Assembly: GCA_002842465.1 (NCBI GenBank)
Contig: PHDA01000022.1
Location: 43,885 to 88,609, forward strand
Direction of reading: 5' to 3'
DNA: 44,725 bases
Source of the DNA: Bacteroidetes bacterium HGW-Bacteroidetes-7
GTDB lineage: Bacteria > Bacteroidota > Bacteroidia > Bacteroidales > UBA932
A model generated the notes under the pieces. The model ran no database searches, was not told where the DNA came from, and worked only from the letters and a program-made list of their open reading frames with translations. Positions 12,423 through 37,833 of the stretch are shown here, piece after piece (the first letter of the stretch is position 1; each line of letters begins with the position of its first letter). Position numbers and translations under genes: made by a program.

Positions 12423-12561
12423 ATCTCCGCGCCAGTTTTGGACATGTACCTGTATATCAGGTTATTACAAAAGAGACTTTTGCAAAAACCTCTTAAATTT
12501 CAAAAAGTCCTATTTATAACACACATAATATCAAATAGTTGTCCAAAACTGGCGCGGAGAT
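12423..12561. repeat. 135-bp palindromic element, copy 1
   Basis: The core 12425-12559 is exactly 135 bp and begins CTCCGCGCCAGTTTTGG and ends in its inverse complement; the perfect terminal inverted repeat here is 22 bp with AT at each edge. Outside are an A-tract (12417-12422) and a T-tract (12562-12568), so on either strand the arms form a GC-rich stem followed by T, as in a bidirectional terminator. An inner stem pairs GACTTTT with AAAAGTC. The two halves are similar throughout, so the whole unit is quasi-palindromic. Confidence 0.9.
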
Positions 12562-12674
12562 TTTTTTTCGTGTGTTTGTGTGTGTTGTTTTTATGGTGCC
12601 TGCCGGCGGTTTGTTGTCTAACTGATTTGGTGTATCAGATTGTTTTTCAGCGTGTTCCCAGAAGCTGCGTTAAC
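12562..12674. other. Spacer between element copies 1 and 2
   Basis: GT-rich stretch with TGTGTTTGTGTGTGTTGTTTTTATGG and no coding signal. Short frames that run through this region and the two element copies have no recognisable protein similarity and I treat them as chance. Confidence 0.5.
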
Positions 12675-12809
12675 CTCCGCGCCAGTTTTGGATATGTGCT
12701 TGTATGTCAAATTGTTACAAAAGAGACTTTTGCAAAAATCTCTTGAATTTCAAAAAGTCCTATTTATAACACACATAATATCAAATAGTTGTCCAAAACT
12801 GGCGCGGAG
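12675..12809. repeat. 135-bp palindromic element, copy 2
   Basis: Same length and arms as copy 1, offset by exactly 250 bp. By eye it differs from copy 1 at nine positions, all transitions; the right-hand 60 bases are identical. It is followed by ATTTTTTT and lies 21 bases beyond the sucD stop codon, in the convergent gap between the radical SAM gene and sucD. Confidence 0.9.
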
Positions 12810-12829
12810 ATTTTTTTGCCGGCGGTTGG

Positions 12830-13696
12830 TTAGGCATTCTTACGAAGCAGGTGGGGAATTTGGGCGGGTTCGGAGGCGACGGGTACGCCTGCTTTTGCAA
12901 AGGCGTCGGTCTTCTCTTTTGCCGTTCCGGTTCCGCTTGATATGATGGCGCCGGCGTGACCCATGCGTTTGCCGGCAGGTGCTGTGACTCCGGCGATAAA
13001 GGCGGCAACGGGTTTGGTAATATGATCTTTAATGTATTGAGCTGCCTGCTCTTCGGCGTCACCTCCGATTTCACCAATCAGTACGATTGAATCGGTTTCG
13101 GGGTCGTTCTCAAACATTTTGAGGAGTTCGAGGTAGTAGAGGCCCACCACAGGGTCGCCTCCGACACCTATTGCGGTTGACTGTCCTATGCCGCTAAGGG
13201 TAAGGTTGTAAACTACTTCGTAGGTTAAGGTGCCACTTCGTGAAATGACTCCGGTTTTACCCTCTTTGAAGATGTTGCCGGGCATTATTCCAACAAGTGA
13301 CTTGCCGGGAGAGATTAATCCCGGGCAATTTGGACCTATAAGCGAAACCCCTTTTAAGTCGGCATATCGTTTGGCTTCTACAACATCAAGGGTAGGGACT
13401 CCTTCTGTAATGCAAACAATAAGTGAAACACCTGCATCGGCAGCCTCCATTATTGCATCCTTGACGAAAGGTGCAGGAACAAAAATCACAGAGGTGTTTG
13501 CACCTTCCTTTATAACAGCATCGGCAACGCTGTTGAATACGGGAATACCGCCGGCGTGTTGCCCACCTTTACCCGGTGATGTGCCTGCAATTACCTTTGT
13601 ACCGTATTGCTCCATTTTTGCAGCATGAAATCCGCCATCTCTGCCGGTAATGCCCTGCACTACCAGTCTTGTATCTTTATTTATTAATATGCTCAT
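12830..13696 (-). CDS. sucD: Succinate-CoA ligase, alpha subunit
   Basis: 288 residues. The alpha subunit binds CoA and carries the phosphohistidine; the conserved [23 protein letters not shown] and GHAGAI(ISSGTGTA) blocks are all present, the last containing the active-site His. With SucC it interconverts succinyl-CoA and succinate with ATP or GTP formation, in the cytosol. It starts 12 bases after the sucC stop codon; the pair is an operon on the minus strand. C-terminus is HLLRKNA, normal for the family. A 135-bp palindromic element lies just past the stop and may end the transcript. Confidence 0.97.
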
Positions 13697-13699
13697 TTA

Positions 13700-13737
13700 C
13701 CTCTGTTTTTACTTATTGCCTCTGTTTTTACTTAGTT
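13700..13737. repeat. 19-bp duplication at the sucC-sucD junction
   Basis: Two contiguous 19-bp units (13700-13718 and 13719-13737) share the first 16 bases CCTCTGTTTTTACTTA. The sucC stop codon TAA (13709-13711) lies in the unit nearer sucD, while the other unit encodes the last sucC residues. The shift of 19 bases changes frame, so the duplication helps set the end of SucC. Confidence 0.8.
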
Positions 13738-14857
13738 CTACCGATTTGCTTATAGCCATGCTCATTGTGTCGGCACTATGGAACGAGGTGCCCTTTAAAA
13801 GCTCTCTACCCTCAGCCTCATTTGTGCCTGTAAGACGAATAACCACCGGAATATCAGTTTTTAGATACTTGAATGCCTCTATCAGACCTCTTGCAACATC
13901 GTCGCATCGGGTAATTCCTCCAAAAATATTAATCAAAACCACGTTAACCTCAGGGTCACTCGTAAGCAGCTTCATAGCCTCGATAACCTTATTGGGGTTG
14001 GAGCTTCCTCCAATATCAAGGAAGTTGGCCGGCTCACCACCATACAGTTTGATCATATCCATAGTGGCCATCGCCAGGCCGGCTCCGTTAACCATACAGC
14101 CAATCTTGCCCTTAAGGTGCACATAGCTGAACCCCTTTGACTTGGCATCCTGCTCCCTCTTCTCCTCCTCATCAGGCTCAAAGAGAGCCTCCACCTCAGG
14201 CTGACGATACAAAGCGTTATCATCAAAATTCATCTTTCCGTCAATGGCAATCAACTGACCCTCTTTAGTAACCACAAGCGGATTTATCTCCGCAAGAGAC
14301 GCATCGGTTTCTGTAAAGAGTTTGTAGAGGTTTTGAATAAGCGGAACAGCCTGTTTAACAACGTCAAAGCTATCAAAAAGCATAAATGCCGCCTTTCTCG
14401 CAAGAAATTCCGGAATTCCGATAAGCGGATCAATAGCAATTTTAATAATCTTCTCAGGAGCCGTAGCAGCAACCTCCTCAATATCCATCCCCCCCTCACG
14501 ACTCATGATAAGCACAACAGACCTCGAATTGCGGTCAATCACAAAACTAATGTAGTACTCCGATTCAATATTTACCCCTTTGGCAACCATTACTCGGTCA
14601 ACTTTAAAGCCCTTGATATCCATTCCAAGAATGGCCTCTGCATGCTGCTTAACCTCTTGTGGAGATTTTGCAACTTTTACCCCACCGGCCTTTCCTCGTC
14701 CTCCGGTATGTACTTGAGCCTTAATAACAACTACCTCTGAAAAGAGGTTTCTGTAGGCCTCAAGACAGGAGTCCACATCTGTGCAGACTATGCCCTCGGC
14801 AACGGGAATCCCGTAGCTGTTAAAAAAATCTTTTGCCTGATATTCGTGTATTTTCAT
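13709..14857 (-). CDS. sucC: Succinate-CoA ligase, beta subunit
   Basis: 382 residues with an N-terminal ATP-grasp domain (MKIHEYQAKDFF, then VHTGGRGKAGGVKV) and the C-terminal CoA-ligase fold (LDIGGSSNP, NIFGGITRCDDVA). It supplies the nucleotide site and, with SucD, catalyses the substrate-level phosphorylation step of the TCA cycle. Start ATG at 14857. The C-terminus reads NRGNK, with the stop placed in a 19-bp duplicated segment. Confidence 0.97.
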   Translation of the reverse strand: MKIHEYQAKDFFNSYGIPVAEGIVCTDVDSCLEAYRNLFSEVVVIKAQVHTGGRGKAGGVKVAKSPQEVKQHAEAILGMDIKGFKVDRVMVAKGVNIESEYYISFVIDRNSRSVVLIMSREGGMDIEEVAATAPEKIIKIAIDPLIGIPEFLARKAAFMLFDSFDVVKQAVPLIQNLYKLFTETDASLAEINPLVVTKEGQLIAIDGKMNFDDNALYRQPEVEALFEPDEEEKREQDAKSKGFSYVHLKGKIGCMVNGAGLAMATMDMIKLYGGEPANFLDIGGSSNPNKVIEAMKLLTSDPEVNVVLINIFGGITRCDDVARGLIEAFKYLKTDIPVVIRLTGTNEAEGRELLKGTSFHSADTMSMAISKSVELSKNRGNK

Positions 14858-15025
14858 ATGAGTTGTTTGATTGTCAGTATTTATAAAATAGTTGGGTATA
14901 TTATCTGATTTAGTGTGGTTTTAATTAGTATAACCAAGTTGTAATATTGAAAGTTCAAAGCTTATCTGCAACTAATAAAATTAAGCATTTTGAAAGAGTT
15001 ATGCAATGGCTGTGAATGAAATTTG

Positions 15026-15033
15026 TATATTTG
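15026..15033 (+). promoter_or_regulatory. Possible -7 element (TATATTTG) of the UroD-thioredoxin gene
   Basis: TATATTTG matches TAnnTTTG and ends 16 bases before the ATG at 15050, giving a very short leader. No clear -33 TTTG at the usual distance. It supports 15050 rather than an upstream TTG at 15023 as the start. Confidence 0.4.
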
Positions 15034-15049
15034 TGTAAAGCGAGTTGTT

Positions 15050-16510
15050 ATGAAGGGTAAAGAGTTGATATACAAAGCCATAAGGCTTGAGAAATGCGAA
15101 AGGGCCCCATGGGTTCCATTCGTGGGAGTTCATGGAGCCTATCTAATTGATTGTGATTCGGAAAGCTACCTCCAGTCAAAAGAGTTAATCGTAAAGGGTG
15201 TGAATGCCGCTATCAAGCAGTACGACCCGGATGGGATTCCTGTTGTTTTTGATCTTCAGCTGGAGGCCGAGGCTCTTGGCTGCAAAGTTATATGGGCGAA
15301 AGAGAACCCACCGTCTGTTGTAGGTCACCCGCTTGCACAGGGAGTCAGTTTAGATGAGCTTAAGATTCCGGTTGCGGAGGGTAGAATTGCTGTTGTACTT
15401 GAAGCTGCAAAGGAGCTAAGAGTTCAGAATCCCGATATCGCGCTTTACGGATTGGTTACAGGTCCATTCACTCTTGGTTTGCATCTGCTTGGTACAGACA
15501 TATTTATGCAAATGTTTATGGAAGAAGCTGCTGTTCACAGGTTAATGAGATTCTGCACAGATGTTTCCAAGGAGATGAGCAGATTGTATGCCGAGGCCGG
15601 TTGCGACATAATTGCAATTGTTGACCCGATGACCAGTCAGATTGGAACCGATCAATTTGATACTTTCGTACCTGAATATATGAAAGAGATATTCAGCCAT
15701 ATTACGAAACTTGGCAAATACTCCTCATTTTTTGTCTGCGGAGATGCTCAGCACAATATTGAGGCGATGTGCAACTGCATGCCAGATAATGTTTCAATTG
15801 ACGAAAACATTCCGCTTGATTACGTGAGAGATATATGTGTTTCAAAAGAGATAAGCTTTGGTGGGAATCTGAAACTTACAGCAACACTACTTCTTGGGAC
15901 AATTGCAGATAGTGAAAAGGATGCGCTTGAATGTCTTGCAAAGGGAGGTGAGAGGGGCTTTATTCTTGCGCCTGGTTGCGATCTGCCGTACAAAACAGTT
16001 GTTGAAAACCTTACGGCTGTGAAAGATATTGCAACGGATAAGTACAAAAGAGATATTGCACAGGTTCTGCACAATAAAAAAACAGATGAAGTAAAAGTTA
16101 ATACTAAAGGTGGTAATCAAATCAATCAGACAGATTCTGAAAGTCCGGCAAATGAGACAATTAAATATATTGAAAATGAGTTAAAAACTCAGGTTGAGCA
16201 ATACCTTGCTTTACCAAAGGTTAAAATTGATGTGATAACATTGGATTCTGCCTCATGTGCACCATGCCAGTACATGATGAATGCAGTCCTTAATGCTACA
16301 GAACGATTGGGAGATAGTGTAATTACAGAAGAGTTTAAAATTAAAGAGAACAGGGGATTGGCTATGATGAGTGTGTTGGGTGTTAAGAAAATTCCAACAA
16401 TTTGTATTGATGGAGAGGTCTGCTTTTCATCAATTATTCCACCTGTAAATGAAATTAAGAAGGCAATTGAATTAAGAATAGCTGCAAAAGTTTGTAAATT
16501 AACAGAATAA
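15050..16510 (+). CDS. UroD-fold methyltransferase-like protein fused to thioredoxin domain
   Basis: 486 residues from the ATG at 15050. Residues about 1-345 are a uroporphyrinogen-decarboxylase-fold barrel of the MtaA/MtbA (methylcorrinoid:thiol methyltransferase) branch, with VTGPFTLG, DPMTSQIG, FVCGDAQHN and GFILAPGCDLP; in that branch the His and Cys of the last two motifs bind zinc. After a polar linker, residues about 385-480 form a thioredoxin-like domain with C403-A-P-C406. The methyltransferase branch transfers methyl groups between a corrinoid protein and a thiol; the fused redox domain suggests a thiol-based acceptor or self-reduction, which is inference. A CobW-type GTPase gene follows 95 bases later. 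No corrinoid protein gene is adjacent. Confidence 0.8.
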   Translation: MKGKELIYKAIRLEKCERAPWVPFVGVHGAYLIDCDSESYLQSKELIVKGVNAAIKQYDPDGIPVVFDLQLEAEALGCKVIWAKENPPSVVGHPLAQGVSLDELKIPVAEGRIAVVLEAAKELRVQNPDIALYGLVTGPFTLGLHLLGTDIFMQMFMEEAAVHRLMRFCTDVSKEMSRLYAEAGCDIIAIVDPMTSQIGTDQFDTFVPEYMKEIFSHITKLGKYSSFFVCGDAQHNIEAMCNCMPDNVSIDENIPLDYVRDICVSKEISFGGNLKLTATLLLGTIADSEKDALECLAKGGERGFILAPGCDLPYKTVVENLTAVKDIATDKYKRDIAQVLHNKKTDEVKVNTKGGNQINQTDSESPANETIKYIENELKTQVEQYLALPKVKIDVITLDSASCAPCQYMMNAVLNATERLGDSVITEEFKIKENRGLAMMSVLGVKKIPTICIDGEVCFSSIIPPVNEIKKAIELRIAAKVCKLTE

Positions 16511-16588
16511 GTAAGTACATTGCACAGTCAAAATAATTATGGTACTTTTAATATTGCTTTCTGTATTATTATACGAACTAATTTATTT

Positions 16589-16596
16589 AGAGGAGG
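16589..16596 (+). promoter_or_regulatory. Strong Shine-Dalgarno before the CobW-type gene
   Basis: AGAGGAGG ends nine bases before the ATG at 16606. Such an anti-16S match is exceptional in this window, where other genes lack purine-rich sites, as is usual in Bacteroidetes. Confidence 0.75.
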
Positions 16597-16605
16597 TTAA
16601 AAAGT

Positions 16606-17508
16606 ATGTCAAAAATAGTACTTCTAACAGGGTTTTTAGGAAGTGGAAAGACTACTTTACTAAAAGATTTATTGTCGCATTATTCACTAAAGTATAAGAT
16701 TGGTATTATTCAGAATGAGTATTCCGAAGTATCAATAGATGCTCAGGATCTTAAGAAAACAAAATGGAAATTTGATCTGATTGAGTTAAATAAGGGTTCA
16801 ATTTTCTGTGTTTGTTTATACTCAGATTTCAGACAAGAGGTAGAGAGATTGGTTAAAGAGTCACAACCCGACATAATCTTTATTGAGGCATCAGGACTTG
16901 CAGACCCAATATCAATCGGATCACTCCTGGATGACAACAAATACTTTTATTTGTCAAAAGTGGTCACAATAGTTGATGCTGTTACCTTTTCGTCAATATA
17001 TAAATATATAAAAAGCGTTACAAATCAGGTGAGGGTTGCTGATATTGTTTTGGTCAACAAATTTGACAAAATAACTTCTGACCAGGCAGAGTTAATCAGT
17101 CACACAATTTCTGTTATTAATCCCTTGGCTCAGGTTTTCTTTACTTGCTTTGGAAGGGGGGATTTTGATCCTGAAATAATACTGAAAAGTGAACTTTCAG
17201 AGAGAGTGGTTCCGATTGAAGCCAATAGTGAAGATGGTCTTACTCTAGCTCCACTTGCTGATATTTCGTCCAGGGTTTATAAAAGCACCAATAAGACTGA
17301 TAAGGATAAGCTTTTGCAGTTTGTCCGAAATGTGCCAACTCAGATAATTCGCCTAAAGGGCTTTATTACCTGTGCAGATGGTAACAGCTATTTGATTCAA
17401 TTTGTCAAAGGTGACAAAGAGGCAAAATTGACGAATTGTGAAAATGTCACTCGCACAGAAGTAATTGCAATCGGGACTGATATCCCTGAACTCGACCTGT
17501 TTAAGTAG
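16606..17508 (+). CDS. CobW/COG0523-family GTPase
   Basis: 300 residues. G3E GTPase with P-loop GFLGSGKTT (9-17), Walker-B-like IIFIEASGLADP and NKFD (151-154), then a CobW_C domain with LKGFI. The family's metal-binding CxCC motif is reduced here to C68-V-C70 (NKGSIFCVC). COG0523 proteins insert or allocate metals (Zn, Co for cobalamin, Ni) to client enzymes. Its position after the UroD/thioredoxin fusion suggests metal or corrinoid delivery to that protein; this is context only. The ribosome binding site is unusually strong, which may point to transfer from another phylum or to high expression. Confidence 0.87.
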   Translation: MSKIVLLTGFLGSGKTTLLKDLLSHYSLKYKIGIIQNEYSEVSIDAQDLKKTKWKFDLIELNKGSIFCVCLYSDFRQEVERLVKESQPDIIFIEASGLADPISIGSLLDDNKYFYLSKVVTIVDAVTFSSIYKYIKSVTNQVRVADIVLVNKFDKITSDQAELISHTISVINPLAQVFFTCFGRGDFDPEIILKSELSERVVPIEANSEDGLTLAPLADISSRVYKSTNKTDKDKLLQFVRNVPTQIIRLKGFITCADGNSYLIQFVKGDKEAKLTNCENVTRTEVIAIGTDIPELDLFK

Positions 17509-17521
17509 AAGTCAAATCAAT

Positions 17522-18355
17522 TCATTTTTCAAAAAAAATCACATCCGCAACAACCGGAAGATGATCGGAAGCATCAAATCCCTTAAGGACTCTATGATTT
17601 GTGAACTCCATTTTAAATTTGCTTCTTGAGTGGTTTCTCAGAAACAGGTAATCTATGTGCTTTGTAGGTATTGTGTTAGGGAAAGTAGGATTAAAACCCA
17701 GCTCAGATGGGGTAAATTTTCTGTAAACCAACTTCATCTCTGCGCTTTTTGAGTCGGCATTAAAATCACCACCCAGTATAACCGGAATCTTTTGAGAAAC
17801 AAGGAATTTTCTAATATGCTTTATCTGAAACTTTCTGTAAACCTGATTAAGATCTAGGTGGGTTGTTGCAACCATTATCTTTCCGAATTTCGGGTGCTCT
17901 ATCACTGCGCTACCCATTAGCCGCTGCTCCTCTCCATCCTGTGTAGGCAACCTGTGAAGCAACTCTTCAGATAACGGAAACCTTGAAACAATTGCCCCTC
18001 CGTATTCTCCTCCCGAAAAATCGATGGCCTTATAAAACCTGAAATATCCCAACCCGCTCCTCTTTGCAATCTCCTCCGCCTGATTTCCTTTACCCGAGCG
18101 ACCGGTATTAACATCAACCTCCTGCAGAAAAACAACGTCTGCACCGCTTGCCGCTATGATACGGGCAATTGCATCTATATTAATTACACCCCTCTGCGCC
18201 GGTGGGTTGCAGTGGTGTATGTTGTAGGTCATAACCCTTAGGGTTCCAAAAATCTCCTTTGCATTTGTTTGTGCATAGCAAGTTGCTGTGGGGTAGCCCG
18301 GCACCAGTTGCAGAATGAGGAGGGTAAATAGAAAGAGTGAGAGTTTCTTAGCCAT
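17522..18355 (-). CDS. Secreted endonuclease/exonuclease/phosphatase-family protein
   Basis: 277 residues from the ATG at 18355 (MAKKLSLFLFTLL...); a further start at 18376 would only add seven polar residues before the signal peptide. The signal sequence ends near ATCYAQ. The EEP metal-dependent phosphodiesterase fold is shown by MTYNIHHC, FLQEVDVN (catalytic Glu), GGDFNADS (Asp/Asn) and SDHLPVVADV (terminal Asp-His). Substrates of the family include DNA, phosphoinositides, sphingomyelin and phosphate esters; the substrate here cannot be told. Exported to the periplasm or beyond. It converges with the CobW-type gene 13 bases away and is divergent from the creatininase-like gene. Confidence 0.88.
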   Translation of the reverse strand: MAKKLSLFLFTLLILQLVPGYPTATCYAQTNAKEIFGTLRVMTYNIHHCNPPAQRGVINIDAIARIIAASGADVVFLQEVDVNTGRSGKGNQAEEIAKRSGLGYFRFYKAIDFSGGEYGGAIVSRFPLSEELLHRLPTQDGEEQRLMGSAVIEHPKFGKIMVATTHLDLNQVYRKFQIKHIRKFLVSQKIPVILGGDFNADSKSAEMKLVYRKFTPSELGFNPTFPNTIPTKHIDYLFLRNHSRSKFKMEFTNHRVLKGFDASDHLPVVADVIFFEK

Positions 18356-18492
18356 TTTTTTGTTGTAAAGATACAAAATGGTGATAGCTTTTTGTACATT
18401 TGATCATTAGAGGTGATAAAGAGTAAACAGAATAGCTTAAAATAAATTGCGTAAACTGAATTAAATATATTTAAACACCTAAAATTTAAGTT

Positions 18493-19395
18493 ATGAATAA
18501 ACCGGCAACAATTTTAATAGCATTTGTGATCTCAATATTTTTAATTTCAATCTCATATTCAGCTTCTGCCCAGAAAATTTCAGTTCAGTGGGAGGAGCTA
18601 ACTTCTGAGGATTTTAAAGATGCAGTTGAAAAGTCACAGGGTGTTTGCATTATTCCTATGGGGGTAATAGAGAAACACGGTCAGCAGCTTCCTCTGGGTA
18701 CCGATGTTTATACATCCAGAGAGATAAGCATAAGGGCATCAAAAGAGGAGTATGCAATCGTATTTCCGTTTTATTATACGGGTCAGATTTTTGAGGCAAA
18801 ACAACAACCGGGCACAATAGCTTATAGTAATGAGCTTATATTCAAATTGCTGGATGAGACTTGCAAAGAGATTTCAAGAAACGGTATTAAGAAGATTATA
18901 ATTGTGAACGGACATGGTGGTAACAACAATTTTGTCCGCTATTTCGGGCAAATACAGCTTGAGTCACCCAGAGATTATGCTGTTTACCTATATACTCCCG
19001 AGCCGGATGCTGAGAGTCAAAAGAAAATTGCCGAACTGAGGTCAAGCAAAACAGGAGGACATGCAGATGAGGTTGAGACAAGTGTAATGCTTGCAGTGAG
19101 GCCCGATCTTGTGAAGATTAAGAGAGCAAAAGCCGAATCGGGAGATGATCTCAACAGACTTAATGTAAAGAATGCCTACACCGGTATCTGGTGGTATGGT
19201 AAGTACCCCAATCACTATGCTGGAGAGGCTTCGAAAGCTAAAAAAGAGATTGGAGAGATATCCCTTTCAAACAGTGTCAGACAACTCAAGGAGATGATTA
19301 AGGCAGTTAAGGAGGATACTCAAACCATTAAGCTTCAGAATGAATTTTTCAAAGAGTCTGAGAATCCGCTTAAGACACAGGCTCGATCAAAATAA
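18493..19395 (+). CDS. Exported creatininase-family amidohydrolase
   Basis: 300 residues. Signal peptide (residues 1-27, cleavage after SASAQ), then a creatininase-like binuclear-metal domain: PMGVIEKHGQQLPLGTD with E60, H62 and D71, VNGHGGNN, and GGHADEVETS holding the last metal ligand. Family members cut cyclic or linear amides (creatinine, formamidopyrimidines, mycofactocin peptide). Most are cytosolic, so the signal peptide is notable but seen in Bacteroidetes. No peptide or cofactor operon lies next to it; the substrate is unknown. A short non-coding gap with a hairpin follows. Confidence 0.87.
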   Translation: MNKPATILIAFVISIFLISISYSASAQKISVQWEELTSEDFKDAVEKSQGVCIIPMGVIEKHGQQLPLGTDVYTSREISIRASKEEYAIVFPFYYTGQIFEAKQQPGTIAYSNELIFKLLDETCKEISRNGIKKIIIVNGHGGNNNFVRYFGQIQLESPRDYAVYLYTPEPDAESQKKIAELRSSKTGGHADEVETSVMLAVRPDLVKIKRAKAESGDDLNRLNVKNAYTGIWWYGKYPNHYAGEASKAKKEIGEISLSNSVRQLKEMIKAVKEDTQTIKLQNEFFKESENPLKTQARSK

Positions 19396-19484
19396 ATTGC
19401 TTTTTTGATAATATTGTGATGACCTTTTACGAAATGGGTGTCAACGGGTGTTTACCGTCAGTAACTTTAGTCATTGATTGTTTA

Positions 19485-19602
19485 TTTGGCAAACTCCCTG
19501 GATGACTCTTACATTGTGTTTGCAGGCAGCACATTCTTCTGAACTAAAACCAGGGTTAACGGAGATGATTCGGACACGCACCGGTCATCTCCGTTTCTTA
19601 TT
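19485..19602 (+). ncRNA. Candidate small transcript between creatininase and M64 genes
   Basis: The 321-base gap 19396-19716 holds no plausible gene. It does hold TTTG (19485-19488), a 21-base spacer and TACATTG (19510-19516), close to the TTTG-N19-21-TAnnTTTG Bacteroidetes promoter, and a hairpin with an 11-bp stem (19558-19568 with 19585-19595) then TTTCTTATT. A transcript of about 75-80 bases would result. The -7 match is imperfect and the T-tract weak; it could equally be the terminator of the creatininase-like gene. Confidence 0.25.
19558..19602 (+). terminator. Hairpin with 11-bp stem
   Basis: AACGGAGATGA pairs with TCATCTCCGTT across a 16-base loop, followed by a T-rich tail interrupted by C and A. 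It would stop transcription from the left. Confidence 0.65.
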
Positions 19603-19680
19603 ATTTCTTAAGTTTCAGTAATTCATGCTGTTGCAATAATTTATTGCTTCTTGATGTAACAAATACATCCCATTAATTGT

Positions 19681-19688
19681 TATCTTTG
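19681..19688 (+). promoter_or_regulatory. -7 element (TATCTTTG) of the M64 lipoprotein gene
   Basis: TATCTTTG fits TAnnTTTG and ends 28 bases before the ATG at 19717; a -33 box at normal spacing is not clear. It makes the GCC-preceded start at 19699 less likely than 19717. Confidence 0.45.
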
Positions 19689-29766: not shown

Positions 29767-29782
29767 AAAAACTGGCGCGGAG
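29767..29782. repeat. Remnant arm of the 135-bp palindromic element
   Basis: AAAAACTGGCGCGGAG matches the right arm of the full copies. It directly abuts the TAA stop (29785-29787, minus strand) of the ATP-cone nuclease gene. The rest of an element is not recognisable to the left. Confidence 0.55.
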
Positions 29783-29784
29783 AT

Positions 29785-30621
29785 TTACCCGGCAAGTGCT
29801 TTGAGTTCGTCCATGACCTTACGGTATTTCACATTTCCAAGGCTGAGCGAATCCAAAACGGACGGATCTTTGAGAATCTGGCGGCAGATTACAATACCTT
29901 TCTCCATAAGCGCTTGTTTCTGTACATAAGTAAGATTCGAAAGAGAGGTTACAGGAAAAATTCTTTCACGGTCAATTATGTCCTTGAGGCTGTTACCTAT
30001 CGGAAAATCCCAACTCATCAGAAACAAACCGCTGCACTTACCGTATGCCTCTGCATCAGAGGTAAAACGGGTATTTGTAACAACTCCTCCCGAAAAGGTA
30101 AAATTTTCAAACCCCGAAGCTGTCTTTCTCTTCGCAATAATATCATCTACTCTTGAGCGGATATAGAGTGGCACCTGAACATTGGCATTTTTTCCGGTAC
30201 TCTGATAGTATTTACACTCTATGAAACGTTGGTGATTACCCTTGGTGGCTATAACATCAACCTCATGTGTAACACAATGTCCATCAAGAATTTCAGAAAC
30301 TTTAACGTCATATCCAAGCGAACGATAAATTTCACCTACAAAATGTTCAAAAGGGTGCCCCGTTGGACCAAGCTCCATCATTGCCGTTTTGAGCTTATAT
30401 CTCGCGGCGTTGGATGTGGTCATCTTTCTTAGCATCGAAAAGGCTCGCGCATAAATCTGATTGCTTGGAATTACATCCTGCCCTGAAATCCAAACCTCTA
30501 TCTCCCTTACAATCTGATCAATAATAACATCTTCTGCCCCTGAACGAACCAAAGATTCCCTAAATTTTGATGAGGAGAAGGGCACAAGCTCCCCGGATGC
30601 CTTTTGAATTAAAGTTTTCAT
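29785..30621 (-). CDS. ATP-cone domain fused to Mrr-like restriction endonuclease
   Basis: 278 residues. Residues 1-90 form an ATP-cone (MKTLIQKASGELVPFSSSKF... SGAED... IEVWI), the nucleotide-sensing domain best known from ribonucleotide reductases and NrdR. Residues 90-210 have a PD-(D/E)xK nuclease core: E120, D122 (HEVDVIA) and E135-C-K137 (FIECKYY). The C-terminal 60 residues are helical. The combination suggests a DNA-acting nuclease gated by ATP or dATP. No methylase or specificity gene is near, so it is not an ordinary restriction system. Remnants of the 135-bp palindromic element flank it on both sides. Function unproven. Confidence 0.83.
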   Translation of the reverse strand: MKTLIQKASGELVPFSSSKFRESLVRSGAEDVIIDQIVREIEVWISGQDVIPSNQIYARAFSMLRKMTTSNAARYKLKTAMMELGPTGHPFEHFVGEIYRSLGYDVKVSEILDGHCVTHEVDVIATKGNHQRFIECKYYQSTGKNANVQVPLYIRSRVDDIIAKRKTASGFENFTFSGGVVTNTRFTSDAEAYGKCSGLFLMSWDFPIGNSLKDIIDRERIFPVTSLSNLTYVQKQALMEKGIVICRQILKDPSVLDSLSLGNVKYRKVMDELKALAG

Positions 30622-30693
30622 TTATTGAAATGTTGTTACCGAGATGTTGTTTTAGCAATTTTTAAATTAAGCATAGGCATGTTTGCAATAGTT

Positions 30694-30728
30694 ACATTAT
30701 TAAATAGTTATTGCAAACTGGCGCGGAG
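30694..30728. repeat. Diverged right end of the 135-bp palindromic element
   Basis: From 30694 the sequence follows the right third of copy 1 (ACAT, AAATAGTT, AACTGGCGCGGAG) with several changes and small gaps. The left part would fall at the start of the nuclease gene and is not recognisable. A local hairpin TTTGCAATA...TATTGCAAA lies at 30682-30717. Confidence 0.6.
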
Positions 30729-30747
30729 AAATTAACACGTAAATGTA

Positions 30748-30776
30748 CAAAAAAATGCCGGCTAAAGAGCCGGCAC
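30748..30776 (-). terminator. Rho-independent terminator of the thioredoxin-like gene
   Basis: On the minus strand TGCCGGCT-CTTT-AGCCGGCA (30756-30775) is followed by seven T. It lies 53 bases past the stop codon of the thioredoxin-like gene at 30829. Confidence 0.88.
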
Positions 30777-30828
30777 CAATTATCATACTGTTTTTAGTCA
30801 CATTAATTTTTCACGTTGAATTCTCACT

Positions 30829-31443
30829 TTACTTCTTAACCTTTATCGTGCAACCAATGGCAACGGTTGTCTTAACCTCGACCTCCTTACCCGCTAAAAG
30901 TGCATCTACGGCAGCCTCTACATACTTATTGGAGACGTCATTAGCATTTTTATAATTATCGTCAATTGTTCCTATGTACTTGACAATATGCTTGTTGTTC
31001 TCTTTCTTTAGTACAAATACATGAGGAGTTTTTGTGGCTCCGTATTGAGGATAAATTTTTTGACCATCATCAAATAGATATGGATAAGGGAAATTTTTCT
31101 CCTTTGCGCGCACCTGCATCAGTTCGAAGCTATCTTCCGGCTGAGCAGCAGGATCGTTAGGGTTTATTGCAATTACCGGATAGCCCAGCTTTGCGTACTT
31201 TTTCGAAAGCGCGATTTTTCTATCTTCGTAAGCCTTTGAATATGGGCAGTGGTTGCATGTGAAGATCACGATAAAGCCCTTGGCATCTTTGAAATCTGCC
31301 ATCGAAACCATTTTGTTGTCAACATTTTTCAGTTTAAAGTCAGTTGCCTCGTCACCGATTTTGTAACCTCCCTGTGCACTTAAAGTACCTAAGGAGAAAA
31401 GAGTTATGAATAATAACCCGGCTATTTTAGAGATTGTTTTCAT
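30829..31443 (-). CDS. Exported AhpC/thioredoxin-fold protein
   Basis: 204 residues. Signal peptide (cleavage after LSAQ, residue 24), then a peroxiredoxin/thioredoxin fold (YKIGDEATDFKLKNVDNK) with a CxxC at C63-NH-C66 followed by PYSKAYE. This is the widespread envelope 'thioredoxin family protein' type with TCNHCP. Expected in the periplasm as a thiol reductase or peroxidase; the redox partner is not known. It is 201 bases downstream of a TlpA-like gene on the same strand and has its own terminator. Confidence 0.88.
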   Translation of the reverse strand: MKTISKIAGLLFITLFSLGTLSAQGGYKIGDEATDFKLKNVDNKMVSMADFKDAKGFIVIFTCNHCPYSKAYEDRKIALSKKYAKLGYPVIAINPNDPAAQPEDSFELMQVRAKEKNFPYPYLFDDGQKIYPQYGATKTPHVFVLKKENNKHIVKYIGTIDDNYKNANDVSNKYVEAAVDALLAGKEVEVKTTVAIGCTIKVKK

Positions 31444-31536
31444 TTGCTATTTATTTGGATTTGTATTATTGTTTTTTAGTTTTTTTAATTATTCTGTTGA
31501 TGATTTTGAATTCAAAAAATTGCTGATTTACATTTA

Positions 31537-31575
31537 CTGTTTACGGTTTCAGTTTATAGATTCAGTTTACGGTTT
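31537..31575. repeat. 13-bp tandem repeat between two thioredoxin-fold genes
   Basis: Three contiguous 13-base units CTGTTTACGGTTT, CAGTTTATAGATT and CAGTTTACGGTTT, 69 bases past the stop codon of the TlpA-like gene. The rest of the gap 31444-31644 is AT-rich with no gene. Confidence 0.7.
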
Positions 31576-31644
31576 CTGATCATACTTCATGTTTACACTT
31601 TTGGATTATACTATTTGTTTAAGTATTCTAATCACTCTTGCTTC

Positions 31645-32253
31645 TTACAAATGTTTTGAAATTCGCTCCTCAAGCTCCTCTTTGGTGAGTGCTCTGGCGT
31701 CAAAGCTGAGCGTTTTACCGTTTTTGATTACAAGCGTTGCCGGTATTGAGCCGGACCAATCTTTGTTGACGGCCGGAATCCATTCATTCATTTTTTTGAT
31801 ATCATCAAGAAGGTAGAGGTCCGCATCAAGTTTCATTCTTCTGGCAAAATTTTTAACAGCCGTTTCCAGATTATCCGAATCGTCCAATGAAACGAGTATC
31901 ATCTTAAACTTTTCGTTTGATTTGTACTTCTGATTCATCTCCATGAAGTGCGGAAGTTCCTGTACGCAGGGGCCACACCAGGTTGCCCAGAAGTTAACAA
32001 CGTAAAGAACGTCGTCATTATTGATGTATGCCGGTTTAAGTTGTTCGAAGTTTACCAGCTTAATGTTGATGTCTTCTGAGAAGTTCTCATTGTTTGTGCT
32101 TTCTGCTTTTCCTTGGTTGAACTCAGCATTAGTGCTACCCATACTGTGTTCCGACTCTTCAGAACCGGAGCCGGAGTTTTTGCACGAAGACAGTGAAAGC
32201 AAAATTATTGATATTGAAACAGGTATTGCAAGGAGTGTAATTATTGACCTCAT
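31645..32253 (-). CDS. TlpA/ResA-like thioredoxin lipoprotein
   Basis: 202 residues. SPII signal ending SLSSC (C24), a Ser/Gly/Glu-rich linker to about residue 60, then a TlpA-like domain with NFWATWCGPC (C93, C96) and a cis-Pro region SIPATLVIKNGK. Membrane-anchored thiol-disulfide reductase facing the periplasm; family members keep cytochrome c or other envelope thiols reduced. It is divergent from the phosphoesterase-propeller gene, with a full palindromic element in the 325-base gap. Confidence 0.92.
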   Translation of the reverse strand: MRSIITLLAIPVSISIILLSLSSCKNSGSGSEESEHSMGSTNAEFNQGKAESTNNENFSEDINIKLVNFEQLKPAYINNDDVLYVVNFWATWCGPCVQELPHFMEMNQKYKSNEKFKMILVSLDDSDNLETAVKNFARRMKLDADLYLLDDIKKMNEWIPAVNKDWSGSIPATLVIKNGKTLSFDARALTKEELEERISKHL

Positions 32254-32342
32254 TTATTCAAGTATTTAGATTATAAACAACTAAAGAGTGAAAAAGTTCG
32301 ACCTGCCTTCGACCCAACTTGCGTAGCTAGCTACAAAAATTT

Positions 32343-32477
32343 CTCCGCGCCAGTTTTGGATATATTGTTGAATATGAAGGTGTTCTAAAATAGACTTCAG
32401 TCAAAAAGCGTTAAATATAAAAAAGTCTCATTTGCAAAATGCTTAATAACAAACAGTTGAACAAAACTGGCGCGGAG
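32343..32477. repeat. 135-bp palindromic element, copy 3
   Basis: Exactly 135 bp from CTCCGCGCC to GGCGCGGAG, flanked by AAATTT and AAATTTT. The inner stem AGACTT/AAGTCT is kept although the flanking bases differ from copies 1 and 2; the left 38 bases are close to copy 5. It is the only copy in a divergent gap; the rest of 32254-32578 is non-coding with no other signal that I can name. Confidence 0.9.
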
Positions 32478-32578
32478 AAATTTTGCCAAAACGAAAAATT
32501 GGTGACTACGAAAATTTTAATACCTTTATTTTAATTGAAAAATTGAGTTTAAAGTGAATCATAAATTGAAACGAGAAT

Positions 32579-35152
32579 ATGAAACGAATAAATAAATTTA
32601 GAACGCTCCTGCATTTTGCACTGGTGGCGTTGATGATGATGCCTGCAGTGGTAATGACGGCAGAAGCAATCAGGGGCAGGGTAGTGGATGAGAAGGGTAT
32701 TGGTATTGAGGGGGTTGTGGTTTCGGAGGGGTTTAATGTGGCCAAGAGTGGCAGGATGGGTGAGTTTATTTTGGAGCGGAGCCCAAGGGCGAAATTTGTA
32801 TATATTTCTACTCCAAGTGGGTATGAGCATATTGGTCCGTTTTACTTCAAGCTCGAACAGGCAAATAAAAGCCAAAACCACAGCAACAGCAAAGAAACCC
32901 ATGTGCATACCAGTAGCGGCAATGGAGTACATGTGGAAATCATTTTTCCGCTCAGGAAAACTGAAAACGAATCAAACCTCTTCATACATATGGGAGATAC
33001 CGAGGAGTCGGTGTACAGAGATTGGATGGACATTTTGAAGGAGAACATTGCCAACAATGATTATGCATTTGTGCTTTTTAATGGAGATATATGCTACGAG
33101 CCGGGGTTGAGGCTTCATGCCGAGCATTTTACGACTCAAAAGCTTGGTGTGCGGGTTGTTTATTCGGTTGGTAACCATGATCTTGTTGACGGAGCGTATG
33201 GGGAGGAGTTGTTTGAGCAACTTTACGGGCCTGTTTGGTATTCGTTTAACGTTGGCGGGGTTCACTTTGTTGTGACGCCTGTGTTGACCGGCGACAGAAA
33301 GCCAAGCTACAATGCTGATGATTTGTACAACTGGATGAGGAAAGACCTTGAGTCGATTCCCGAAGGAACACCCGTTGTGATGTTCAACCACCATCTTCTT
33401 GGCTTTGAACAGAAATTTAAATTTAAGACAGAAAATCAGGAGTTTGACCTCGGTAAATACAACCTCAAAGGGTACCTCCACGCACATTATCACACAAACC
33501 TCTATCACAAGACAGACAGAGGCGTGGCGGTAATGGCCACGATGCCACCAAACAAAGGGGGAAAAGATCACAGCCCCTCTTCTTTCAGGGTTGTTGAGTT
33601 TGATACACTTGGAAACCTGGCTACACACCTCAAATACTCCCCGCTCAGGAAACATATTGCGGCCAATGCGTATCTGTCGGCCGGCGGTGACGTGTGCAAT
33701 GTAGTTGCGGCAATTTATGATACACCATCTGAAGTTGTTGAGGCAACCATGATGATAGCCGGGGCAGAGTACCAACTTACGCAGAAGAGCAACTGGAGCT
33801 GGAGCACAAATTTTGAACCCTCATCTGAAGCCAAAAACATCATGCGGCCGGCCGAACGACTCAACCTCAACCTCCTCAACCCGGTCGTAATCGAAAGCAA
33901 AGCAATCCGCCACAATGAGCAACCAAAACTCAAGGTGAAATTTTCTGACGGCAGCACCGTGATTACAATCGTAAACATTCTTGAAGGAGCTCAGTCAGCC
34001 GAAATCAAAACTAGTGAAGGCACCTCTACCGAAAAAGAGTTTGTAACAGAATCTAAAAAACAGGTTGCAGAAATTTCTGACGCCAAAAACTCACCAAAAA
34101 TTGGATGGGTGAAAAATCTTGGCGGAAACATATTCATGACCTCGCCGCTGATAACCGAAAACCTTGTGATTTCGGCCACAACTGACGACAATATGGCTCT
34201 GGACGCAGCAATCTGTGCGCTGGACAGGGCTACCGGAGAGGTTGCCTGGAAGTTTAACACCCACAACTCTGTAAAAAACAACCTCCACATATATAACGGA
34301 GTCGTTTTTGCTGCCGATGTAGAGGGCTTTGTCTATGCTTTAGACGCACAAAGCGGAGAGGTTAAGTGGGAAAAACCTCTGAGACAAAATATTATACAAT
34401 ATCCTTATACTCAGGGAGTAGTGGTAAGCAGAGGAGTTGTTTATGCCGGTCAAGGCTACTATCTTACGGCTCTTGATGCTGCGAGTGGGGAGGTTTTGTG
34501 GGTGAACACCCATTGGCGTGGAGATGTTGGCACAGTTGCAAATCCGATAGTTGACGAGGCCAACAATGTTCTATTGACCGCAGCCTACTGGACAGGCCGC
34601 TTTGCACATGATGCAACAACTGGCAAATTGATCTGGGAGAAGAGGGACGGAGATACCCGTTATGCCGACAATTCGCCGGTACTCTTTGACGGAAAATTTT
34701 TCTACGCCTCGCCAGGTTTCATTACCGAGGTAGATCCTTTAAGTGGTGAGGAGCTTATGAAGCTTAAGATCGATTACCGAATCAACAGCAACTCAAGGCC
34801 TCTGGTTACCGAAAAGTACTACATCACAGGCACAACCGACAAAGGGGTTGTTGCTTTTGACCGCACTAACGGCTACAAAGAGGTTTGGAACTTCAAGACA
34901 AACCCCGCTTTGCTTTACACAGCGCCCTACACCAAAGATTTCCAAATGACCGTAGATGGAGGCGTCGCCCTTAAAGGCAACAACCTCTACTTTGGCGCCA
35001 ATGACGGATACATCTATTGCGTAGACGTGCGCAACGGCCGCTTCATCTGGCGAATCAACGCCGGCTCACCCATCCTGGGCAACCTCCTAATTGACCAAGA
35101 CACCCTCTACGTAGCAGACTTCGCCGGCAATTTGTGGGCAGTGAAAATTTAA
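32579..35152 (+). CDS. Calcineurin-like phosphoesterase fused to PQQ-type beta-propeller
   Basis: 857 residues. Signal peptide (1-30), a carboxypeptidase-regulatory/MetallophosN-like domain (IRGRVVDEKGIGIEGVVVSEG), then a metallophosphoesterase with D140, GD at 169-170, GNHD (198-201), NHH (270-272) and HAHYH (301-305). A beta domain follows, and residues about 490-857 form a PQQ/BamB-type propeller of repeated blocks such as YALDAQSGEVKWEKPL. The exported protein probably hydrolyses phosphate esters while the propeller binds a partner or ligand. No PQQ-enzyme catalytic residues are evident, so I call the propeller structural. The substrate is unknown. Confidence 0.88.
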   Translation: MKRINKFRTLLHFALVALMMMPAVVMTAEAIRGRVVDEKGIGIEGVVVSEGFNVAKSGRMGEFILERSPRAKFVYISTPSGYEHIGPFYFKLEQANKSQNHSNSKETHVHTSSGNGVHVEIIFPLRKTENESNLFIHMGDTEESVYRDWMDILKENIANNDYAFVLFNGDICYEPGLRLHAEHFTTQKLGVRVVYSVGNHDLVDGAYGEELFEQLYGPVWYSFNVGGVHFVVTPVLTGDRKPSYNADDLYNWMRKDLESIPEGTPVVMFNHHLLGFEQKFKFKTENQEFDLGKYNLKGYLHAHYHTNLYHKTDRGVAVMATMPPNKGGKDHSPSSFRVVEFDTLGNLATHLKYSPLRKHIAANAYLSAGGDVCNVVAAIYDTPSEVVEATMMIAGAEYQLTQKSNWSWSTNFEPSSEAKNIMRPAERLNLNLLNPVVIESKAIRHNEQPKLKVKFSDGSTVITIVNILEGAQSAEIKTSEGTSTEKEFVTESKKQVAEISDAKNSPKIGWVKNLGGNIFMTSPLITENLVISATTDDNMALDAAICALDRATGEVAWKFNTHNSVKNNLHIYNGVVFAADVEGFVYALDAQSGEVKWEKPLRQNIIQYPYTQGVVVSRGVVYAGQGYYLTALDAASGEVLWVNTHWRGDVGTVANPIVDEANNVLLTAAYWTGRFAHDATTGKLIWEKRDGDTRYADNSPVLFDGKFFYASPGFITEVDPLSGEELMKLKIDYRINSNSRPLVTEKYYITGTTDKGVVAFDRTNGYKEVWNFKTNPALLYTAPYTKDFQMTVDGGVALKGNNLYFGANDGYIYCVDVRNGRFIWRINAGSPILGNLLIDQDTLYVADFAGNLWAVKI

Positions 35153-35180
35153 GACGAGAAATTTGCAGCGGTAGCGTTTT

Positions 35181-36578
35181 CTAGTACCGGTAGTGGTCGG
35201 GTTTGAATGGGCCGTCGGGTGAGACGCCGATGTATTGGGCCTGGTCGGGGGTGAGGCGGGTGAGTTTGACGCCTATCTGGTCGAGGTGCAGGCGTGCGAC
35301 CTCTTCGTCCAGATGTTTAGGAAGGCGGTAAACTCCCAATTCGTAATTGTTTTTCCAGAGTTCTATCTGTGCAATCACCTGATTTGTAAATGAGTTGCTC
35401 ATCACGAATGACGGGTGACCAGTCGCACAACCGAGGTTAACAAGACGGCCCTGGGCAAGCAGAATTATTGAATGACCATCGGGATAGGTGTACATATCTA
35501 CCTGCGGTTTGATGTTGGTCCTCTTTATACCCGGCCACTTCTCAAGCTGAGCAACCTGAATCTCGTCATCAAAGTGGCCAATGTTGCACACAATAGATTG
35601 GTCCTTCATAGCGGCCATATGTTTAGCGGTAATAATGTCGCGATTTCCGGTAGCGGTCACAAAAATATTCGCCTCCTTAACAGCCTCGTCCATGGTCACA
35701 ACCTCGAAACCCTCCATAGCCGCCTGAAGCGCACAAATCGGATCAATCTCGGTAATCAATACCCTGGCACCATAACTGTGCATCGAACGGGCACAACCCT
35801 TGCCAACATCACCGTAACCGGCCACAACTATCACCTTGCCCGCAATCATTACGTCAGTCGCACGCTTAATGCCATCAGCAAGCGATTCGCGACATCCGTA
35901 CAGGTTGTCGAACTTCGATTTTGTAACCGAGTCGTTAACGTTAAATGCCGGGAAGAGGAGTTTGCCCTGCTCCAACATCTGGTAGAGGCGGTGAACGCCT
36001 GTTGTAGTCTCCTCCGAAACCCCTTTTACAGACGAGGCCGCCTTTTGCCAGCGACCCTTATCTGCGGCGAGGATCTTCTTAAGAATCTTATTAAGCTCCT
36101 GCTCGTCCTGAGTATCGGCATGAGCATCCAGTACTGCAGGATTGGTCTCCGCCTCAAAGCCTCTGTGTAACATAATAGTAGCATCGCCGCCGTCATCAAC
36201 AATTAACGTCGGACCCATGCCGGCGCCAAAGTCAAGAGCCCTCTCGGTGCACCACCAATACTCCTCCAGAGTCTCCCCCTTCCAGGCGAAAACGGGCACT
36301 CCGGCAGCAGCAATAGCCGCAGCAGCGTGATCCTGAGTTGAATATATGTTGCAACTGCACCAACGAACCTCGGCACCCAACTCCTTAAGAGTCTCAATGA
36401 GCACAGCGGTCTGAATGGTCATATGCAGAGATCCCATCACGCGGGCGCCGGCCAACGGCTTAGAAGCGCCATACTTTTTGCGCAGAGACATCAGCCCCGG
36501 CATCTCTTTTTCGGCAATCCCAATCTCTTTTCTACCGAATTCCGCCAACGTTATGTCGGCCACTTTGTAGTCTTTCAT
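35181..36578 (-). CDS. ahcY: Adenosylhomocysteinase
   Basis: 465 residues. Hydrolyses S-adenosylhomocysteine to adenosine and homocysteine, NAD-dependent, removing the product inhibitor of methyltransferases. Conserved blocks: [38 protein letters not shown], the NAD loop [10 protein letters not shown], and the C-terminal PDHYRY. It completes the methyl cycle with metH and metF upstream on the same strand. Element copy 4, lacking its left arm, fills the gap before its start, so its promoter is probably within or next to that element. It converges with the phosphoesterase gene 28 bases away. Confidence 0.97.
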
Positions 36579-36596
36579 TTTATATGAGTTTTTGTG

Positions 36597-36709
36597 TTGT
36601 TGATTTTGAGTGCTTTCAAAAATAGACTTTTGTCAAAAATGTTTTTTTTGGAGAAAGTCTGATTTGTATGTTGTTGAATTATAAGTTGTTGTCCAAAAGT
36701 GGCGCGGAG
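36597..36709. repeat. 135-bp palindromic element, copy 4, left arm missing
   Basis: The 113 bases align without gaps to the last 113 bases of copy 5, and the right arm (CCAAAAGTGGCGCGGAG) ends one base before the metF stop codon. The 22 bases that should be the left arm (36575-36596) are different and contain the ahcY start codon. On the minus strand the element includes TATTTTTG, which matches the -7 consensus. Confidence 0.85.
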
Positions 36710-36710
36710 A

Positions 36711-37664
36711 TTAAAAGCTGCCGCGCACAATTCCGGCAACATTGTCGGAGCGGCCGAGGGTGTAGTAGTGTATGCCAGGCACTCCGGCCTTTAGAAGTTC
36801 GCGGGACTGAGCGGTAGCCCACTCGACACCCACCTCACGGGCACCGGCATCATCCCGGCAGGCGGCAACCGCCTTGTACAGGTCATTTGGAACATCAATG
36901 TGGAAAGTCTGCGGAAGCAAACGAATATCGTTCAAGGCCGAAATCGGCTTCAGACCCGCAATAATCGGAACCTCAATCCCAGCACCTCGGCACGCCTCCA
37001 CAAACCTGAAAAACTTGGCATTGTCAAAAAACATCTGAGTAACAATGTAATGCGCGCCCTGGTCAACCTTCGCCTTAAGCAGCGCAATGTCGGCCTCCAT
37101 GTTGGGCGCCTCAAAATGCTTCTCCGGATAGCCGGCCACACCAATGCAAAACGAAGTGGGGGCAGCGTGCTCCATTGACTCGTCCAGATACTTGCCCCGG
37201 TTGAGATTCGCAATCTGCTTCACAAGGCCGGCTGCATTCGCATGCCCATCTTTCTCAGGAATGAAAGAGCGGCTGCCCCGGACAGGGTCGCCACGAAGGG
37301 CCAGAACGTCGTGAATTCCAAGGAAGTTCATCTCGATCAAAGCATTTTCGGTCTCCTCGCGAGTAAAACCGCCGCACAAAACATGGGGCACAACGGTGAT
37401 GTCGTACTTGTACTTGACGGCAGCCGCCAGCGCAATAGTGCCAGGCCGAATTCGCGCCACCCGCTTCTCAAGCGACCCGTCGGGCCTCTCGCGGTACGTA
37501 GTCTCGTTGCGGTGCGAAGTAAAATTGATATAAGCCGGCTGAAACTCCAGCAACCCTTCGATAGCGGTGTAAACCTTGTCAATACTGTGTCCCTTTAACG
37601 GAGGGAGGAGCTCAAATGTGAAGAGCGGGCTTTTTGCGGTTTGAATTTTTTCGAGTACGGTCAT
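36711..37664 (-). CDS. metF: Methylenetetrahydrofolate reductase
   Basis: 317 residues, FAD-dependent TIM barrel reducing 5,10-methylene-THF to 5-methyl-THF, the methyl donor for MetH. Conserved FTFELLPPLKG near the N-terminus (family FEFFPP), HVLCGG, NFLGIHDVLALRGDP, and TQMFFDN. Start ATG at 37664; the stop TAA is immediately followed by the arm of element copy 4. Flanked on both sides by palindromic elements, it likely has its own promoter. Confidence 0.96.
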   Translation of the reverse strand: MTVLEKIQTAKSPLFTFELLPPLKGHSIDKVYTAIEGLLEFQPAYINFTSHRNETTYRERPDGSLEKRVARIRPGTIALAAAVKYKYDITVVPHVLCGGFTREETENALIEMNFLGIHDVLALRGDPVRGSRSFIPEKDGHANAAGLVKQIANLNRGKYLDESMEHAAPTSFCIGVAGYPEKHFEAPNMEADIALLKAKVDQGAHYIVTQMFFDNAKFFRFVEACRGAGIEVPIIAGLKPISALNDIRLLPQTFHIDVPNDLYKAVAACRDDAGAREVGVEWATAQSRELLKAGVPGIHYYTLGRSDNVAGIVRGSF

Positions 37665-37698
37665 GTTTAGGGGGTTTTGTATGTGTTTAGGGGTGGTT

Positions 37699-37833
37699 CT
37701 CCGCGCCAGTTTTGGACATATTGTTGATTATGAGAGTGTTCTAAAACAGACTTTTGTTAAAAATGGGTTTTGTGAAGAAAGTCTAATTTGTATATATCTG
37801 AAATATATGTAGTTATCCAAAAGTGGCGCGGAG
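37699..37833. repeat. 135-bp palindromic element, copy 5, overlapping metH
   Basis: Exactly 135 bp. The right arm has one change (AAAAGTGG for AAAACTGG) shared with copy 4. The inner stem AGACTTT/AAAGTCT is intact. The last 21 bases of the element (37813-37833) encode the final six residues and stop codon of MetH on the minus strand. It ends 34 bases before the metF start on the other side. Confidence 0.92.

Follow-up and report, generated by a model that had tools for sequence, protein, structure and literature searches.

Dispersed hairpin repeats of fixed length in a Bacteroidales genome and their probable RAYT-type transposase

What kind of sequence recurs at exactly 135 bp along a 44,725-nucleotide stretch of the Bacteroidetes bacterium HGW-Bacteroidetes-7 genome, and what keeps its length fixed? 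The stretch, referred to as the window (G000:C29:43885-88609), belongs to an assembly of 2.39 Mb in 42 contigs, designated G000. An earlier note on the window had described the repeat as a dispersed hairpin family of fixed length and unrecognised type; the first part of this description stands, and the type can now be narrowed to a RAYT-type system. The repeat belongs to a set of several small-element families that a single-strand transposase probably spreads through genomes of uncultured Bacteroidales. The unit is an inverted doublet of a half of about 60 nt and is the counterpart of a REPIN. With a probability of roughly 0.84, the 135/136-bp repeat (family 1) and a 124/125-bp sister (family 2) are non-autonomous mobile hairpins spread by RAYT1, an HUH/Y1 transposase of the RAYT/TIRYT kind.

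To our knowledge, how RAYT and TIRYT enzymes recognise their repeats, and what sets the exact length of a repeat family, are open questions outside the GTAG-type systems of Proteobacteria. As 22 of the 25 genomes of the genus encode a RAYT1-related match (E<=0.001), many with a hairpin of its own, the arm, the core and the length of such units can be compared as natural experiments.

Two hairpin families of fixed length

The arm pattern CTCCGCGCCANTTT occurs in G000 at 34 + 38 = 72 exact sites, the abundance that the window had led one to expect, and at 0 + 0 sites when read backwards. Arms of this type are found in five of the 25 genus genomes, namely G000, G001, G014, G015 and, as a single lone site, G010. 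The full family-1 pattern, searched in the contigs of 84,980 species, a collection that may leave out the window's own genome, gave 30 stretches, all of them in three metagenome-assembled genomes that were matched to G001, G014 and G015 by their contigs.

Length was surveyed on arm pairs 90-259 bp apart in stretches fetched from four species. The 80 pairs comprise 58 of 135/136 bp, 17 of 124/125 bp, one of 101 bp, in which the inner stem is by eye gone, and four of 164, 219, 219 and 243 bp, which include an insert or were paired through a stray arm nearby. One duplicate and these last four were dropped from later counts, leaving 57 + 17 + 1 pairs, 74 of which are full copies; the fixed length seen in the window extends beyond it. 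Family 1 is characterised by the arm CTCCGCGCCA[C/G]TTTTGGACA and the inner stem AGACTT/AAGTCT. Family 2 has the tip CTCCGCGCCA in common with family 1, the arm CTCCGCGCCAGTTTGTGGTA and the inner stem GAGCCAA/TTGGCTC. The mean identity within family 1 is 91% in the arms and 59% in the interiors, and its length is held constant while the sequence drifts. The constant length had been attributed to selection on structure; acceptance by the transposase, rather than a function for the host, would be its simplest cause.

Two inverted conserved ends, a variable spacer and a hairpin fold are present in these elements. The proposal that the whole unit folds was upheld for the four full copies of the window, which give z scores of -5.6 to -10 against shuffles when folded as single-strand DNA. 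Covarying pairs had been suggested as a check. In family 1, pairing exceeds permutation at those arm positions that vary (z 5.9) and where the inner stem is extended (z 7.3); the inner stem of family 2 has a weak excess (z 2.9). The interiors of two further families, from genomes G007 and G018, have no pairing excess over permutation. The permutation leaves the relatedness of the copies in; slid partners score lower in nearly all cases. Mirror pairing of the spacer is below permutation in all four families, which argues against a single rod-like helix. One family-2 copy was scanned and has a terminator-like inner stem on both strands. The elements are without a match in Rfam at gathering scores, in agreement with the view that the sequence is not a known repeat.

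RAYT1, related transposases and the shared core

A search of the 25 relatives with PF01797 led to a 279-aa frame amid a cluster of four copies of the element in G000, the locus of RAYT1 (Table 1). Among the 25 genomes RAYT1 is found in G000 and, as orthologues of 76-77% identity, in G014 and G015. Next in score comes a match of 45%, and partial matches reach 47-51% over 156-175 aa. The orthologue of G015 has a copy upstream and an arm directly behind its stop codon, at the contig end. That of G014 is bracketed by family-2 hairpins, with a family-1 copy farther along, so that one enzyme probably serves both families.

RAYT1 scores 31.9 bits against PF01797 (Y1_Tnp; cut-off 23), which all 13 aligned members match, and contains the HuH and Y motifs NHVH and YILQNP. 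A profile of 13 such proteins (E<=1e-20) found 28 of 99 relatives: 22 of the 25 in the genus, 6 of 34 elsewhere in the family and none of 40 in other families. The distance from HuH to Y is 57-58 residues in all 27 of the 28 proteins that show both motifs. A helix-turn-helix at the C-terminus gives weak matches in one or two of the 13 members (best E 0.02). Judged by eye, the motif LFxxPF appears to occupy the position of the Trp-Gln of GTAG-reading RAYTs. A PHROGs search gave no match, and a plasmid search gave 11 records with listed identities of 24-31%. RAYT2 of G000 (contig C40) is not taken as the cognate enzyme because no such hairpin lies within 400 bp of it. A canonical IS200/IS605 element was also considered; the Y1 match on G000:C16 is broken by stop codons.

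Around 30 RAYT loci, 28 of which have a readable open reading frame (ORF), a hairpin was counted if it measured 96-160 bp, had 15 or more paired bases in its arms and lay within 400 bp. Such a hairpin lies beside 15 of the 28, and also at L171, a 29th. The arms are unlike between RAYT groups and common to close RAYTs (G006/G010, G023/G024, and G013 together with G004, whose hairpin is about 1.1 kb from its RAYT). Two arms first read beside RAYTs, in G007 and G018, were then searched in the 25 genomes. The G007 arm (<=1 mismatch) has 26 + 24 sites in G007, 18 + 17 in G021 and none in the others, and the G018 arm (<=2 mismatches) has 16 + 16 sites, all in G018. Neighbouring +/- site pairs measure 123 bp in 23 of 23 cases in G007, where four sites are unpaired, and in 15 of 17 in G021 (one of 124 bp and one of 52 bp); 14 of the 15 pairs of G018 measure 108 bp and one 107 bp. 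The prediction that the arms beside RAYTs mark dispersed, genome-wide families is confirmed for both. Yet another family (family 3, ATCCCTGGGAATTCTTTCCTTT) accompanies families 1 and 2 in their four genomes, with 21 of 23 listed pairs at 107 bp, one at 106 bp and one at 58 bp.

Families with unrelated arms have an internal core in common, approximately YTGATWATCAR-N4-TTA. The consensus of the halves of four families (with 20 G007 pairs and 15 G018 pairs used for the profiles) is YTG, an A/T-rich stretch, CAR, four bases and TT[A/G], located 25-27 nt from each end. When each family in turn was left out of the profile, the best register was exact in four of four. Family 3 had no part in the training of the profile, and all 30 of its halves examined show the core at position 26 (p<0.05 against shuffles; 15 distinct copies from the loci, all 107 bp). 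Of the 32 halves of 16 hairpins at other RAYTs, 24 reach p<0.05, and the two halves of every hairpin agree in offset. The 16 come from 11 loci, which had been selected for showing a hairpin; for one of them only a single position was possible, and since L157/L158 and L170/L173 are closely related the 16 are not all independent. Outside the genus a hairpin was found at one of six RAYT loci (G072), with the core in both of its halves. As a control, 18 loci (69,178 bp) of genus genomes without families 1-3 yielded seven hairpins; none of nine halves scored passes p<0.05, five lie at 0.08-0.13 and one at 0.053. The hairpins of G004 and G010 have arms like those at the G013 RAYT, so that this class is not excluded from the control. 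At the core a 3-bp mini-hairpin can form in 32% of the halves of family 1, 38% of family 2 and 43% of the G018 family, where the medians are 3-6%; for the G007 family the share is 20%, and another place reaches 28%.

On the basis of these comparisons we infer the following mode of spread. The arms of about 20 nt would pair on single-stranded DNA, probably the lagging-strand template, and the unit would fold, as it does in silico, into a long hairpin. RAYT1 would read the family-specific arm and probably also the internal core of each half, cleave near the foot, and insert the unit at an AT-rich site, in many cases directly downstream of a stop codon, with no clear target duplication, if its chemistry resembles that of known HUH enzymes. 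Were only units of the right length and register accepted, the length would stay fixed and the spacer bases would drift. Placed copies could serve as intergenic hairpins, those of family 2 perhaps as two-way terminators.

A broader proposal, on which we regard the balance as even, is that these elements form a two-part class, in which the arm of about 20 nt would be the address for the variable part of the RAYT, and the common dyad-plus-TTA core would be meant for the conserved part, perhaps the C-terminal helix-turn-helix. If so, a swap of arms would found a new family with core, register and length rule unchanged, and TIRYT-like RAYTs, reported without REP-like partners (REP, repetitive extragenic palindromic), would gain REPIN-like elements of their own. 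What seems new is that arms peculiar to each family, and unrelated between families, go together with a single core in fixed register, and the core motif offers a way to seek such families from sequence alone.

Known systems, insertion sites and alternatives

REPIN/RAYT systems are described (Bertels and Rainey 2011, PMC3116915) as inverted doublet hairpins with conserved ends, a freer spacer and a preferred fixed spacing, which are extragenic, leave solitary ends as remnants and have a cognate RAYT near copies, all of which is also seen here. The common inter-REP spacings given there are 71 and 110 bp, whereas the present units measure 107-136 bp, with a half-unit of about 60 nt and a core that recurs across families whose arms are unrelated. 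None of 124 elements has the GT(A/G)G foot within its outer 12 nt, and 2 of 74 have it within 6 nt outside an end, so that the elements are REPIN-like in working and not canonical REPINs.

TIRYTs with their TIRtrons (Di Nocera group 2013, PMC3733652) and subclass 2.1 (Quentin et al. 2018, PMC6006769) are alike in having RAYT-like genes with long inverted repeats that are not GTAG REPs. TIRtron repeats are single, dimeric or grouped in some genomes, the HuH-Y distance found here is near the 58-67 common in TIRYTs and subclass 2.1, and a C-terminal helix-turn-helix is possibly a further likeness. The motif GGGGWSAS, given in PMC3733652 for many but not all terminal inverted repeats (TIRs), was found in 0 of 124 elements here. 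Subclass 2.1 is reported in PMC6006769 to lack REP-like sequences nearby, whereas REPIN-like hairpins adjoin many of the present RAYTs. TnpAREP subclass 2.6, from the same study, is likewise from Bacteroidetes and has atypical flanking structures without GT(A/G)G, with copies elsewhere in the genome; those structures are described as weaker, and the median HuH-Y distance of 82, against 57-58 here, speaks against membership. Since the elements are TIRtron-like and subclass-2.6-like with one feature missing in each case, they are assigned fully to neither.

The copies surround a HUH transposase of the RAYT/TIRYT type, and the nearest kind is therefore the REPIN or TIRtron. The earlier comparison with ERIC (enterobacterial repetitive intergenic consensus; 127 bp, enterobacterial) and with miniature inverted-repeat transposable elements (MITEs) is thereby replaced. 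ERIC and the MITEs of DDE transposases resemble the unit in size and symmetry and differ from it in the RAYT association, the lack of a clear target duplication and the common core found here.

T precedes 72 of 74 copies and A follows 73, and an A-tract lies upstream and a T-tract downstream of the GC-rich arms. By ORF context, 26 of 60 copies lie between convergent, 24 between tandem and 10 between divergent ORFs; of the 76 ends that face a stop codon, 18 are 1-2 bp behind it. The copies are extragenic, 57 of the 60 overlapping ORFs of at least 110 aa (ORFs, not annotated genes) by 45 bp or less and three by more. Inverted exact flank matches of at least 7 nt number seven in 73 copies (2.0 expected; 1 of 1000 permutations). 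The region of the window is syntenic in G001, G014 and G015. One site filled in G015 and empty at the matching place in G014, with flanks 82-85% identical, would fit a simple insertion without duplication.

Several observations weigh against RAYT1 as the agent of spread. G001 contains families 1-3, yet RAYT1 was not found in this genome, which is 89% complete; G021 (82% complete) carries the G007 family, yet has no RAYT match; and no RAYT lies directly beside any family-3 copy seen. Ten of the 28 RAYT loci, RAYT2 of G000 among them, have no flanking hairpin as defined above, and three have hairpins of 41-49 bp only. The NCBIfam family REP_Tyr_transpos is the best for three RAYTs, with scores of 33.8 (RAYT1), 49 and 48.1 bits against a cut-off of 80. 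A sequence search of the PDB with RAYT1 gave no HUH entry, its sole matches being weak ones to repebodies and to one secretion protein, and the AlphaFold model of RAYT1 (two rows; pLDDT, predicted local distance difference test, 50.7) is too poor for use. At the polymorphic site, the relatives are only 82-85% identical, and the empty site cannot place the junction to the base. Lastly, direct flank repeats of at least 5 nt occur in 8 of 73 copies, where 4.5 are expected and 50 of 1000 permutations reach 8; a short duplication is possible, and our confidence is lowered slightly.

This weak excess of 5-6 nt repeats, though AAATTT is its own complement, would be in favour of a MITE of an ordinary DDE transposase that acts on double-stranded DNA and recognises terminal inverted repeats of 17-22 bp. 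An element of this kind would account as well for the terminal inverted repeats, the non-coding interior, the fixed size and the AT-rich surroundings. Such a MITE is nevertheless improbable: direct flank repeats of at least 7 nt are absent from the 73 copies, the two flanks are on average no more identical in direct orientation than permutation gives, the gene bracketed in three genomes is of the HUH/Y1 kind (DDE genes with these ends were not searched for systematically), and MITEs would not be expected to have one core across families whose ends are unrelated.

Even less probable is that the copies are bidirectional terminators or mRNA-end structures selected by the host and spread by recombination, with an incidental link to RAYTs. 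The two-way terminator-like stem of the scanned family-2 copy, the tracts of A and T around the arms, the convergent and stop-proximal placements and the inner-stem pairing of families 1 and 2 all speak for it, but divergent genes flank 10 of the 60 copies, the G007 and G018 families are equally fixed in length without an inner-stem pairing excess, and terminators do not predict genome-wide families revealed by RAYT neighbours. Sites bound or recombined by another protein, be it a nucleoid protein or a site-specific recombinase, and integron-like attC sites are the least probable of all. Nested symmetric motifs at fixed spacing, tandem duplications of halves in G015 and the 11-bp difference between families 1 and 2, about one helical turn, could be so explained; the 123, 108 and 107 bp of the other families, however, follow no common helical rule, no cassette array was encountered in the fetched stretches, and hairpins of this type adjoin RAYT genes.

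Copies in the window and further observations

The copies are collected in Table 1. The four full copies were confirmed at exactly 135 bp, and the fifth, ending at 36709, keeps its register over 115 nt, two flank bases included, with the left end lost as described. Both ends read as remnants exist, with the qualification that one is very short and the other looks, by eye, nearer to family 2.

Table 1. Coordinates of the elements and genes discussed (window positions unless a locus or contig is given)
Feature	Position	Strand	Remarks
Full family-1 element, 135 bp	12425..12559	+	Arms CTCCGCGCCA/TGGCGCGGAG, flanks T and A
Left copy of family-independent core (CTGTATATCAG-GTTA-TTA)	12450..12467	+	26 nt from element end; by register and sequence
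Full family-1 element, 135 bp	12675..12809	+	90% identity over 157 nt to copy 12425..12559
Right-end remnant, ~16 bases	29767..29782	+	Solo right arm
Right-end remnant, by eye nearer to family 2 (124/125 bp)	30701..30728	+	Solo right arm
Full family-1 element, 135 bp	32343..32477	+	Counterpart at same place in G001, 87% identity
Family-1 element without left end	36597..36709	+	Missing end would reach adjacent ORF 35181-36578
Full family-1 element, 135 bp	37699..37833	+	Right arm contains stop codon of 1251-aa ORF 37813-41568(-)
RAYT1, 275 aa	L056:764-1591 (G000)		Start 119 nt after one copy; stop codon 2 nt before next
IS3-like element in family-2 hairpins	G000, starts of C13, C17, C37; ends of C15, C35		L287-L289, L291, L292

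The bases preceding the 29782 remnant are flank, and the same flank is found in G001, where the site holds a full-length copy; the site in G014 holds one too, and in G015 the full-length copy has a family-3 element nested inside. At the 32343 site G001 has an additional second copy, of family 2, and the same intergenic region in G014 and G015 contains copies with other flanks. The intergenic region of the copy ending at 36709 holds full copies in G001 and G015.

Rearranged units were seen at locus L074 on G015:C24. Tandem duplications of about 72 bp of the family-1 right half lie at approximately 8217-8290 and 9426-9498, which indicates that half-units can multiply, and the loop of a family-1 element encloses a family-3 hairpin at L074:2263-2505 (G015:C24:46262-46504). 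At five contig ends of G000, family-2 hairpins carry in their apical part an IS3-like element (insertion sequence, IS; recognised by eye, ends TGATGTGAACCC / GGGTTCACATCA), as if it targeted them; insertion of IS elements into REPs (PMC1525189) is a comparison case.

The RAYTs with hairpins of 41-49 bp, the size of canonical REPs, are of the same clade (L160, L178 (G022) and L166 (G011)). RAYT2 of G000 and G014 is followed by a small hairpin, AAGTGGTTTT...AAAACCACTT (L062:2618-2680, L139), and a similar one is present in the G014 counterpart of window positions 12.4-12.8 kb; this could be an additional REP type, a short one. A second short repeat, approximately GCCGCAGGCACCA and its complement, recurs in intergenic DNA beside many copies (L056:80-510, L062 at about 4800-5200), and a similar stretch lies at 12593-12609 of the window.

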